Source of the DNA: Candidatus Nomurabacteria bacterium
GTDB taxonomy: Bacteria; Patescibacteriota; Minisyncoccia; Phycocordibacterales; UBA2100
Reading direction: 5' to 3'
NCBI GenBank assembly: GCA_943356775.1
Contig: CALRFU010000002.1
Coordinates: 1-48,523, forward strand
DNA length: 48,523 bases
In this document: positions 16,930 through 20,043 of the stretch, in pieces
Layout: every line of letters starts with the position of its first letter
How positions within the stretch are numbered: position 1 is the stretch's first letter
Notes under the pieces: generated by a model
The model's database searches: none
What the model saw: only the letters and a program-made list of their open reading frames with translations
Told to the model about the DNA's origin: nothing
Position numbers and translations under genes: made by a program

Positions 16930-16958
16930 TTGGTAAATGCCGACTGCCCATGTATGCT
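16930..16958 (+). promoter_or_regulatory. promoter of the ATP-grasp gene
   Basis: TTGGTA (16930-16935), a 17-nt spacer and TATGCT (16953-16958) end 6 nt before ATG 16965. This favours MKGKREHL as the real start with a leaderless mRNA. A TTGACA at 16910-16915 has no good partner -10. Confidence 0.6.
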
Positions 16959-16964
16959 CGGCTC

Positions 16965-17969
16965 ATGAAAGGAAAGCGTGAACATCTTGTCCTAGCAGGA
17001 TTGCTCAAGAAGCTCGCGCCTAAAGTAGGTGCACACGTGCTTCTTGAGCCCGAGTGGCGCATCGCCGGGCAGATACAGTACAAAGACGGCTCAAATCGCT
17101 ATTTCCGCTACAACACCCTCGACCTCAATCCGGTCGGCGCATCGGATATTGCGAAGGATAAGGACTACGCAAATTTTTTCATGGCTCGTATGGGCTACCC
17201 GACCGTTCGCGGAAAATCTTTCTTTTCGGGCGAATGGTGCGAGGCTATCGGCTCCCGGCGCGATGCCAAGGCGGGATATGCGTACGCGCAGAAGCTGGGC
17301 TTCCCCCTCATCGTAAAGCCCAATTCGGGTACCCAGGGTACCGACGTCTCGCTCGTACACACCAAGCAAGAATTCTTCCGTGCGATGAAACAAGTCTTCA
17401 AGCACGACCGCGTCGCACTCGTGCAAAAGCGCGTCGCCGGTAAAGATTATCGTATCGTTGTTTTGGACAAAGAAATAATTTCGGCGTACGAGCGCATTCC
17501 GCTCAACGTCATAGGCGACGGCCGCTCCACCATCAAACAACTGCTTGCAAAGAAGGCGCGAGGGTTCGTGGCATCGAGTCGCGATACCCGTATCAATCTC
17601 AAGAACCCGCGCATCACGGCCAAGCTCAAACATCAAGGACTATCCTTGACGCATGTCCCCCGAGCCGACGAGCGCGTATATCTTTTGGACAACGCCAATC
17701 TCTCGACGGGCGGTGATGCGGTGGACGTGACGGAAGAAATACATCCTAAATTCAAAAAGCTCGCTATCAAGCTGACGAAGGACATGGGGCTGCGCCTCTG
17801 TGGAGTCGACCTCATGGTGGATGGCGATATCAGAGAGAAGCCGGAGAAATATTCAATACTTGAGATAAACGCCGCGCCGGGATTGGATCACTACGTAAAG
17901 ACGGGGAAAGCGCAACAAAAAATTGTCGAAGATTTGTATTTGAAAGTTCTCAAAAGTCTTGCAAGATGA
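16965..17969 (+). CDS. ATP-grasp ligase, cyanophycin synthetase/GshAB-like
   Basis: The 334-aa protein has an ATP-grasp fold: FRYNTLDLNPVGASDIAKDKDYANFF, LGFPLIVKPNSGTQGTDV (phosphate-binding Lys), KDYRIVVLDKEIISAYERIP, VIGDGRSTIKQLL, and metal ligands in GVDLMVDGD...YSILEINAAPGLDHY. The R-x-V-V...A...R-x-P-x-x-V-x-G-D-G-x-x-T-I pattern is typical of the ATP-grasp part of cyanophycin synthetase and the GshF C-terminus. The Mur-ligase-like half of true CphA is absent. It probably makes an amide or peptide bond to an unknown acceptor. The ORF track start is 16950; 16965 fits the promoter better. Confidence 0.8.
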   Translation: MKGKREHLVLAGLLKKLAPKVGAHVLLEPEWRIAGQIQYKDGSNRYFRYNTLDLNPVGASDIAKDKDYANFFMARMGYPTVRGKSFFSGEWCEAIGSRRDAKAGYAYAQKLGFPLIVKPNSGTQGTDVSLVHTKQEFFRAMKQVFKHDRVALVQKRVAGKDYRIVVLDKEIISAYERIPLNVIGDGRSTIKQLLAKKARGFVASSRDTRINLKNPRITAKLKHQGLSLTHVPRADERVYLLDNANLSTGGDAVDVTEEIHPKFKKLAIKLTKDMGLRLCGVDLMVDGDIREKPEKYSILEINAAPGLDHYVKTGKAQQKIVEDLYLKVLKSLAR

Positions 17970-17972
17970 TTC

Positions 17973-18000
17973 TTGACAGTAAAATTTTTAATCGTATGAT
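17973..18000 (+). promoter_or_regulatory. strong sigma70-type promoter of the LOG-family gene
   Basis: TTGACA (17973-17978), a 16-nt spacer and TATGAT (17995-18000) form the best canonical promoter in the window. It starts 3 nt after the ATP-grasp stop. The predicted +1 near 18007 gives a leader of about 109 nt. Confidence 0.75.
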
Positions 18001-18006
18001 CTCACG

Positions 18007-18115
18007 TTAGTGCCGCCGCCACTTTCGGCTTTACAAAGGTGGTGCCAAATCTGACGGGAAAACCCGCAGATACTCAACTGTCTCCCATGGGAGCAAACCA
18101 AAAGGTTTATGTGCC
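18007..18115 (+). ncRNA. structured 5' leader of the LOG-family gene (possible cis-regulatory RNA)
   Basis: The leader folds as four consecutive hairpins: CGCCACTTT with AAAGGTGGTG (one bulge), ATCTGaCGGG-aaaa-CCCGCAGAT (9 bp with a bulged A), CTCC-catg-GGAG, and AAACC-aaaa-GGTTT. The GG of the last stem belongs to the AAAGG ribosome-binding site, so this hairpin could gate translation. I compared it by eye with common riboswitch cores (SAM, TPP, cobalamin, c-di-GMP, THF, ZTP, fluoride) and did not find a match. Whether it senses anything is unknown. Confidence 0.5.
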
Positions 18116-18844
18116 GTGAAAACTGATACGAACGTGGTCCCATCGGGAACCGGTACCGAAACGCGTCCACTCACCCCCCCGACAGCCGAGGAAGCCTTCG
18201 CGGAGGCGTGGCAAGGTCTCGAGAGGCTAGACCAAAGCTTGACACCGGAACGGAAATTCCGCGTCGTCCTCTTTGGGAGTGCTCGCGTGCCCGAAGATGA
18301 CCCGGTCTATGGCGACTGCTACCAACTCGGCAAGGCCATCGGCCAACATCGGATCGGCGGCGTTACGGGAGGAGGCCCCAGCCTCATGACTGCATTCAAC
18401 AAAGGCATCGTCGAAGGGTGGGCTGGGCAACCGGAGGCCTACAGTCACGGCGTCTGCATCAAGCAGATCAATCGCGATGAAGCTCCGAATGTTTTCCTCC
18501 GGCAGGCCTATTACCATCGCCTGATTCTCACGAGACTGCACCAATTCGTGAGGCTCGGGCACTGGGGAGCAATCATTCTGGCTGAGAAAGGTGGGTATGG
18601 CAGTGACCTCGAAAAGGCGCTGATACACCAGCTCCTTCAATTTAGACAGATGGACGTTCCGCTGATCGCCATCGGTCCGATGTGGAAAGCACGCAAAGCA
18701 TGGGAAAAAGCCTGGATTATCGACCAAAACTTGGCCGAACCCCACGATCTCGACTACATGCAGTGCGTTCCCAAAGCGATGGACGCGCTGCCAATCATTC
18801 TTGAAGCGCATGCGCGCTACAAGGCAAAGAAGGCCGCGGGTTGA
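18116..18844 (+). CDS. LOG-family (TIGR00730-like) Rossmann protein
   Basis: The 242-aa protein has the LOG/lysine-decarboxylase-like fold: VVLFGSARVPEDDPVYGDCYQLGKAI, GGVTGGGPSLMTAFNKG (85-96), RLILTRLHQFVR, and EKGGYGSDLEKAL where phosphoribohydrolases have P-G-G-x-G-T-x-x-E. The G-G and Glu are kept but P is Lys and T is Ser. LOG enzymes release base from cytokinin-type nucleotides, while many bacterial homologues have unknown substrates. A GTG start at 18116 follows AAAGG by 10 nt. It has its own promoter, leader and terminator. Confidence 0.8.
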   Translation: MKTDTNVVPSGTGTETRPLTPPTAEEAFAEAWQGLERLDQSLTPERKFRVVLFGSARVPEDDPVYGDCYQLGKAIGQHRIGGVTGGGPSLMTAFNKGIVEGWAGQPEAYSHGVCIKQINRDEAPNVFLRQAYYHRLILTRLHQFVRLGHWGAIILAEKGGYGSDLEKALIHQLLQFRQMDVPLIAIGPMWKARKAWEKAWIIDQNLAEPHDLDYMQCVPKAMDALPIILEAHARYKAKKAAG

Positions 18845-18863
18845 CCGCGACCATAGAATATCT

Positions 18864-18905
18864 GGAACCCTCTGCTGCGGTGCGGCAGGGGGGTCCATCT
18901 TTTTA
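18864..18905 (+). terminator. intrinsic terminator of the LOG-family gene
   Basis: GGAACCC.CTGC pairs with GCAG.GGGGTCC around a short GC loop and is followed by ATCTTTTT. It lies 20 nt past the stop codon. Confidence 0.8.
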
Positions 18906-19406
18906 TACCCGCTCCAAATCAACCCACGAATATTTCAATCCGTTCCATTCGCGCTTTTCTTCAAATACTTTTTTTGTGAAGGTATCGGCGTACGGCGGGA
19001 AAAAAGAATCCGCTTCTTTTTCGTTGTCGATGAGCGTGATGTAGAGTTTTTCGATATACGGGAGCGCTTGCTTGTAGATTTGCGCGCCGCCGCCGATGTA
19101 TACCTCTTGGTCGTCGAATTCTCTCCCCTTCGCAATCGCCTCTTCAAGCGAAGAAGCGACAACGACGCCCTCGTAACTCCACTCCGCATCACGGGTGACC
19201 ACGATGTTGGTACGTCCTGCGAGGGGCTTACCGTGGGTGTAGCCGAGAATAGATTCAAATGTCTTGCGCCCCATGATGATGGGGTGTCCGAGCGTTAATT
19301 CTTTGAAGCGCTTGAGGTCATCGGGAATATACCAGAGAAGCTTCTCGCCATATCCTAGCTCTCGATTCTTCCCGATAGCGACCACCGCGCAGATACGGCC
19401 CGCCAT
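18903..19406 (-). CDS. folA: dihydrofolate reductase
   Basis: Reduces dihydrofolate with NADPH, regenerating THF used by thymidylate synthase. The 167-aa protein shows ICAVVAIGKNRELGYGEKLLWYIPDDLKRFKELTLG (substrate Asp in IPDDL), PIIMGRKTFESI, GRTNIVVTRD, EVYIGGGAQIYKQALPYIEKLYIT and a C-terminal DSFFPPY. The ORF track begins at TTG 19415; ATG 19406 lies one base after the dcd stop and is preferred. It is the third gene of a thyA-dcd-folA run. Confidence 0.95.
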   Translation of the reverse strand: MAGRICAVVAIGKNRELGYGEKLLWYIPDDLKRFKELTLGHPIIMGRKTFESILGYTHGKPLAGRTNIVVTRDAEWSYEGVVVASSLEEAIAKGREFDDQEVYIGGGAQIYKQALPYIEKLYITLIDNEKEADSFFPPYADTFTKKVFEEKREWNGLKYSWVDLERV

Positions 19407-19407
19407 A

Positions 19408-20043
19408 TTATTCAAGTGCCGAGAAATCCTTTTTCAATTTTTTGAGGTCGCCATTAAATACGAGTTTCATCTCGGCCGCCCTCTCTTTCTTACCCTTCTC
19501 CACTACATCCTTCTGATGCCAGCGGGATTTACGTGGTTCGACTTTATGTTTGAGCTCTTCGAAGACAATCTGACAGAAGCGTTCGCCGGGATGGAGTTGG
19601 ATGGTTTGCGAGTTCGTGTTGTTGCGGATAGGAAGTGTGAGCGGTCCTTCGTAGCCGGAATCGATGATACCCGTGAGGTCAACAGAAAGTCCTTTGCGAT
19701 TGACGGATGAACGCGGATATAAAACGGCCATTAAATCATTCGGTACTTTGATTGTTTCGAATGTAGAGACGAGCACATATTCTTGCGGCAAAAGCTCGAA
19801 GCACTGACCTTGTTCGAGCTCGATGACATCAAAGTATTCGGGCCCATGATCTTTTAGAGGGTCGAGACTGAGGGCCTGTCTCCCCTTCGATGTCATCTTC
19901 CAGGCCTTTGGAATAAGAAAGGTGAACCCGAGGCGAAGGTCGACCGCATGCATCTGTAATTGAAATTTGTCGAGTCCCGGGTTGAACTCAATATTGCCGG
20001 ATTTAACCCGCTCAAGAATCTCGTCTTTGGTGAGGATTGCCAT
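19408..20043 (-). CDS. dcd: dCTP deaminase (dUTPase superfamily)
   Basis: Deaminates dCTP to dUTP, feeding dUMP supply. The 211-aa trimeric-fold protein has LYPRSSVNRKGLSVDLTG (the P-R-S-S motif with catalytic Arg/Ser), IIDSGYEGPLTLPIRNN (catalytic Glu in Y-E-G) and IQLHPGERFCQIVFEEL. A C-terminal basic tail (KSRWHQKDVVEKGKKER) is longer than in E. coli. Whether it is also a dUTPase (bifunctional Dcd-Dut) cannot be told. It lies 12 nt after thyA and 1 nt before folA. Confidence 0.9.
   Translation of the reverse strand: MAILTKDEILERVKSGNIEFNPGLDKFQLQMHAVDLRLGFTFLIPKAWKMTSKGRQALSLDPLKDHGPEYFDVIELEQGQCFELLPQEYVLVSTFETIKVPNDLMAVLYPRSSVNRKGLSVDLTGIIDSGYEGPLTLPIRNNTNSQTIQLHPGERFCQIVFEELKHKVEPRKSRWHQKDVVEKGKKERAAEMKLVFNGDLKKLKKDFSALE

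Follow-up and report, generated by a model that had tools for sequence, protein, structure and literature searches.

Among described RNAs, those closest to the leader analysed here are the riboswitch classes of Rfam 15, of which the small pseudoknotted aptamers preQ1 and SAM-II are functional analogues, and the ompA-type 5' untranslated region, a 5'-terminal stem-loop that stabilises bacterial mRNA. As in the ompA-type stabilisers, structure would lie at or beside the first nucleotide, further hairpins precede the Shine-Dalgarno sequence and there is no terminator; the leader differs from them in the conserved primary sequence of its loop and linker, and in a possible pseudoknot of the 5' end where ompA-type regions have a plain hairpin. 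With preQ1 and SAM-II it has in common that it is a short RNA of the 5' untranslated region, whose hairpin loop may pair with a flanking single strand, and that nucleotide-metabolism genes lie downstream. Unlike the riboswitch classes of Rfam 15, however, it matches no covariance model, its 5' tail would pair with the loop, it possesses no conserved expression platform, and it is restricted to one genus. Since its hairpins recur, with compensating changes, before nucleotide-processing genes of seven genomes, the leader looks like an undescribed, narrowly distributed gene-control RNA.

Results

An earlier note on the window (i.e., the whole stretch of 48,523 nucleotides that was analysed) described a near-consensus promoter and, between it and a GTG start, four consecutive stems, two of them with AAAA loops. 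All of these are present (P1–P4, the AAAA loops being those of P2 and P4), and the features of the locus are as follows:

16950–17969, forward strand: ATP-grasp gene, upstream of the promoter, left edge of the variable interval
17973–18000, forward strand: sigma-70-type promoter TTGACA-N16-TATGAT (-35 at 17973–17978, -10 at 17995–18000), 11 of 12 positions as in the consensus
18009–18015, forward strand: AGUGCCG, probable transcript 5' end and proposed 5' strand of a pseudoknot (AGYGCCG begins all seven members)
18018–18043, forward strand: hairpin P1 by folding, GCCAC (18018–18022)/GUGGU (18039–18043) with inner UUU/AAA; covaries in other members
18026–18032, forward strand: P1 loop CGGCUUU, complementary to AGUGCCG, putative pseudoknot partner (CCG/CGG in 7/7)
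18049–18071, forward strand: hairpin P2 by folding, AUCUG-A-CGGG, loop AAAA, CCCG-CAGAU; a hairpin stands here in five of seven members, with differing sequence
18075–18078, forward strand: CAAC, conserved and unpaired, separating P2 from P3 (six members have CAAC, G009 has CAAA)
18082–18093, forward strand: hairpin P3 by folding, CUCC-CAUG-GGAG (CUCUCAUGAGAG in G003)
18095–18108, forward strand: hairpin P4, AAACC-AAAA-GGUUU, pairing GG of the Shine-Dalgarno AAAGG (18101–18105); not conserved as such
18116–18844, forward strand: gene for a divergent protein of the LOG / SLOG superfamily, nucleotide phosphoribohydrolase-like, 242 aa, starting with GTG
18903–19415, reverse strand: dihydrofolate reductase (DHFR) gene, convergent, right edge of the interval

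Promoter-like sites number two in 2 kb, against 1.3 expected. The promoter spacing would place the transcript start at A18009, so that the structured leader of about 109 nt described earlier (18007–18115) stands as such but its 5' boundary does not, the leader presumably covering 18009–18115 (about 107 nt). Since TAG(Y)GCCG follows the -35 element (TTGAC) at a distance of 28–30 nt in six of the seven members described below, the A of AGYGCCG is probably +1 or close to it, an arrangement that would provide the structure at the very 5' end that is expected of a stabiliser. The G036 leader is intercistronic and has no promoter directly in front of it. A terminator hairpin with a U-run was not found in the window leader.

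The predicted folding energy of the window leader was -34.5 kcal/mol (z -2.0; 9 of 200 shuffles as good) and, in a second run, -36.4 (z -2.2; fewer than 1% of shuffles as good), z amounting to about -2.0 to -2.3 across runs. Among 49 leaders of the same 122-kb contig (genes with at least 90 nt upstream) it ranked only eighth by z and tenth by energy. Hence, folding energy alone does not set the leader apart from its contig, and its significance comes from the comparison between genomes, not from the fold. In the ensemble of the window leader, a longer GUGCCGCC/GGUGGUGC pairing competes with P1, and pairing of GUGCCGYY with the 3' side of P1 and its flank is the energetically favoured alternative in the window genome (G000) and in G008. 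It is possible that the leader switches between a form with P1 joined by the 5' end and this alternative pairing. The inability of the earlier note to name a riboswitch class was borne out by a covariance-model search against Rfam 15, which gave no match to the window leader even at E<=10; on the G005 and G003 loci, the only two matches were weak (E 0.36 and 0.17), and both scored well under gathering and lay beyond the leaders.

The gene behind the leader had been assigned to the LOG family, which is right for the superfamily (phmmer to PDB chains: 1wek, E 6e-14; 5wq3, E 2e-12). By its sequence, the protein is not a member of the curated LOG / cytokinin riboside monophosphate phosphoribohydrolase family (TIGR00730, 19 bits against a cut-off of 96; PF03641, 19 against 27; both below threshold); it is a divergent relative, and the leader is not LOG-specific, as two of the seven copies precede GTP-cyclohydrolase operons. 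Within the genus it has one close relative, that of G009 (72%), and a tight protein look-up of the window LOG in GTDB returned none. At the position of the LOG-enzyme motif PGGxGTxxE the window protein has EKGGYGSDLEKA and that of G009 has DKAGYGSDLEKA, a change that may alter LOG activity. The GTG start at 18116, also proposed earlier, is plausible, because the match with the G009 protein begins at residue 22 and AAAGG precedes the start by 10 nt. The same frame is open for a further 35 codons upstream of GTG18116 (277 aa against 242), as would be expected if the leader were part of the coding sequence. However, these 35 codons contain no ATG, GTG or TTG, and in G008 the stop-to-stop LOG frame starts five codons before the TTG start, which leaves the greater part of the G008 leader unable to code in this frame; we regard a coding leader as very improbable. 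A short ORF overlapping the GTG (ATG18087–TGA18119) is not conserved in G003 and was rejected.

Leaders of the same plan were found in seven Ca. Kaiserbacteria genomes (G000, G003, G005, G006, G008, G009 and G036), the six outside the window preceding four LOG genes and two four-gene operons. When the genus was searched at the DNA level, a single significant match turned up outside the window, namely the G003 promoter together with the 5' portion of its leader (81% identical), behind which lies a gene unrelated to the window LOG gene. G009 and G036 were found through LOG relatives, G005 through the ATP-grasp gene in 25 genomes, G006 through the cargo, and G008 with an AGTGCCG pattern that already required CGG. 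The common plan consists of the AGYGCCG start, P1, CGG in the P1 loop, CAAC downstream (clear in six of seven) and usually two hairpins that are unrelated in sequence. P2 and P3 occur in five members, always as hairpins and with differing sequences; G009 and G006 have neither, the latter keeping CAAC and fitting P1 poorly. The Shine-Dalgarno sequence lies about 10 nt before the start, within a stem in G000, G005 and G036 and within a hairpin loop in G009. Thus, the sequestration of GG of the ribosome-binding site by the last stem, as claimed earlier, holds for P4 in the window but is not conserved, a stem over the Shine-Dalgarno being found in only three of seven members.

Covariation in homologous leaders, the check proposed in the earlier note, was found in P1, which reads GCCAC/GUGGU in the window, GCCGC/GCGGC in G008, GCUAC/GUAGC in G009 and GUCAC/GUGAC in G036. 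Both sides change at three of the five pairs (C-G to U-A twice, A-U to G-C once). In a hand alignment with G006 left out, 29 of 30 P1 cells were paired, which 0.3% of shuffles reach, and the both-side changes were reached by 1.6% of shuffles. In alignment A6, column shuffles gave a weak result (32 of 500 for score); the covariation counted by the tool is weaker there than in the hand alignment because the MAFFT columns are imperfect. P1 thus combines recurrence with compensatory changes, as would the stem of a new structured RNA family, with modest statistics from seven related members. With no Rfam match and with covariation in P1, the earlier suggestion that this may be an undescribed cis-regulatory RNA or structured stabiliser withstood both of the refuting conditions set in the note and is partly supported.

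Directly 3' of the P1 5' strand, each of the seven members has CGG, which is complementary to the 5'-end CCG, and four to six pairs can form. The combination of P1 and a loop that could pair with the 5' end beats shuffles in the five members that were not chosen for it (combined p about 8e-5; this value and the shuffle tests treat related sequences as independent). Because the CCG and CGG letters never vary and so provide no covariation of their own, we put forward the pairing of the 5'-end AGYGCCG with the P1 loop as a proposal, that of a possible pseudoknot. The same letters, read as DNA, form an inverted repeat (AGTGCCG...CGGCTCT) just past the start point, which could be the site of a repressor, the RNA fold being incidental; near-perfect half-sites (AGNGCCG / CGGCNYT) indeed lie beside the promoter in several members. 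A DNA operator is nevertheless less likely since the spacing of the half-sites varies from 9 to 13 nt. Moreover, P1, which lies between them, covaries, no promoter adjoins the copy in G036, and the P2/P3 hairpins and CAAC are left unexplained, which makes this reading improbable in our view.

In 40 congeneric genomes, model R2 gave five members at 53–68 bits, against 20.5 bits or less for anything else; these five had been used to train it, and it missed the copy in G036. Model R1 returned, in the genus, its own members and two matches at E 0.5–0.8. Weak R2 matches (G041, G025, G051, G032 and others) were not accepted after reading by eye, and pattern matches in G047, G016 and G038 were rejected by context. 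Patterns of AGTGCCG...CGG gave hundreds of chance matches in the genus and, among the matches listed, one true new member (G008). Promoter-plus-TAGTGC patterns in the genus, order and class gave, beyond the known members, essentially chance matches, like the reversed-pattern controls. Three of 15 matches in a GTDB pattern scan were true, namely Kaiserbacteria already known, the others being weak by R1; a strict pattern found none in IMG/VR. Overall, no convincing member outside the genus was found in 384 class genomes or in other GTDB species with strict patterns, which would miss diverged copies, and the element occurs once per genome. It was absent from the housekeeping LOG genes with a readable 5' side (17 loci besides G008 and G006, most unresolved by script).

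Other 5' leaders were noted along the way. A short leader in G032 (contig C16, L111 951–994, forward strand), AGTGCCGTTCGCCGTTCTTGCGGCA, precedes a small ORF with a lipoprotein-like N-terminus, scores 15–19 bits with R1/R2 and has a -10 region overlapping AGT; it is possibly a reduced relative. In G036, a small membrane gene precedes the LOG gene (L003, L156, reverse strand), and its transcript would likewise begin with AGUGCUG and a 5'-terminal hairpin; other 5'-terminal hairpins follow strong promoters in L221, L226 and G043 (loci L221, L226 and L155), so that such hairpins may be widespread in the genus. In a related member of the order (G087, contig C3), L106 1537–1622 (forward strand) matches the type III hammerhead ribozyme (RF00008) at 34.2 bits and E 4e-6, below gathering, with a long stem II insert; flanked by a 5S rRNA gene and an ORF of 265 aa, and immediately preceded by a TTGACA...TATACT promoter, it is predicted to be a self-cleaving 5' leader.

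The interval between the ATP-grasp and DHFR genes (17970–18900 in the window; homologues L149–L166) holds varying cargo across the genus. In the window, genes read by eye as dCTP deaminase and thymidylate synthase lie nearby, as does a thymidylate kinase gene. The interval is empty or contains LOG, the four-gene operon, deoxyribosyltransferase-like, aspartokinase-like or small membrane protein genes. The leader stands before LOG genes in G000, G009, G036, G008 and G006, which range from barely TIGR00730-like to full members, and before the operon in G003 and G005, i.e., always before nucleotide-related cargo, which may or may not belong to one pathway; the nucleoside deoxyribosyltransferase-like, aspartokinase-like and other genes of the interval have no leader element. 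The operon (L149 277–3600, forward strand; L150 1478–4875, reverse strand) is led by the gene for a PRK07198-type GTP cyclohydrolase II, which we take to be of the URC1 type; its other products are a TIM-barrel-like protein weakly similar to PRAI, a GTP cyclohydrolase resembling RibA, and a protein without a Pfam match that was labelled deaminase-like by eye. Possibly, it represents a GTP-derived pathway of an unrecognised kind in two Kaiserbacteria genomes; no URC1 protein was found in 397 genomes of the order, a sample without a positive control.

G003 resembles G000 in 30 of 34 promoter positions and 38 of 41 positions within the first 48 nt of the leader, the cargo being unrelated, and resembles G005, whose cargo it shares, in 21 of 33 and 37 of 42, respectively. 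Since G003 is closer to G000 than to G005, and empty ATP-grasp/DHFR sites show no visible remnant of the element, the promoter and leader seem to be exchanged independently of the cargo, as a portable module between these two genes. The element resembles integron attI/attC sites in being structured DNA near a promoter with exchangeable cargo downstream; however, no R''/R' box pair (RYYYAAC / GTTRRRY) was seen by eye in the leaders, round the common structure, and the element lies at the transcript start, not at the gene end, so an attC site was rejected. The promoter and 5' sequence might instead be homologous by descent or recombination at this site, with no selected RNA function. Such a relic would account for the members lying in one variable chromosomal interval and for the promoter spacer being alike in G000 and G003, where selection is unexpected. 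The compensations in P1, the hairpins kept with changed sequence, the absence from empty sites and the shifted position in G003 and G036, where another gene comes first, speak against it, and we hold it to be quite improbable.

Discussion

We tentatively postulate, as a reading that falls a little short of even chances, that the conserved 5'-terminal structured leader acts in cis, after initiation, and sets mRNA stability and translation. Transcription would begin at the A of AGYGCCG, and the first seven nucleotides would pair back onto the P1 loop, tying the 5' end of the mRNA into a compact knot, while two further hairpins and CAAC would extend the structure as far as the ribosome-binding site. 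This reading builds on the sequence that the members share, their position relative to the promoter, the covariation of P1 and the recurrence with unrelated cargo. The likely effect would be that the 5' end is shielded from decay and translation of the nucleotide-processing gene is held at a fixed level. An action on mRNA stability or translation is suggested because the leader contains no terminator, and a protective knot is favoured because of the position of the element at +1 together with the pairing of the 5' end. Against this reading stand the small number of members (only seven), the poor fit of G006 to P1, the lack of P2/P3 in G006 and G009, the lack of a direct promoter in G036, the alternative pairing that energy favours in some members, the invariant CCG/CGG letters, the weak A6 shuffles and the ordinary folding energy; moreover, the conserved letters of CGG and CAAC exceed the needs of a passive stabiliser.

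These conserved unpaired letters, together with the nucleotide-related genes, favour a sensor, in which the pseudoknot of P1 and the 5' end, with CGG and CAAC, would be an aptamer for a nucleotide or its breakdown product and would gate the ribosome-binding site as a translational riboswitch. The cargo of five LOG-type nucleotide hydrolases and two GTP-cyclohydrolase-type operons, clustered beside thyA, dcd and folA, fits this idea, as do the readable housekeeping LOG genes lacking the element, the two competing pairings of the 5' strand and the stem over the Shine-Dalgarno in three members. However, neither a terminator nor Shine-Dalgarno sequestration is conserved as an expression platform, the hairpins vary freely, members differ in how far the Shine-Dalgarno sequence is exposed, the element is confined to one genus with one copy per genome, and an aptamer has no need to start at +1. 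We consider the sensor the main rival reading, albeit an unlikely one, and rank it below the stabilising 5' knot. More doubtful still is a bolder version, i.e., a new class of small 5'-terminal pseudoknot riboswitches, specific to Kaiserbacteria, that would sense a nucleotide or breakdown product and control acquired nucleotide-cleaving enzymes by the thymidylate/folate cluster of an ultra-small, probably symbiotic bacterium.

Kaiserbacteria have reduced genomes and little known gene regulation, and among the papers searched we found no report of a riboswitch in them. The genes that the leader accompanies, namely acquired nucleotide hydrolases and those of a GTP-cyclohydrolase operon, point to a short list of candidate ligands, and its 5' core is small enough for direct testing. 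If the leader were only a stabiliser, it would still be an example of a promoter and leader common to unrelated cargo genes.
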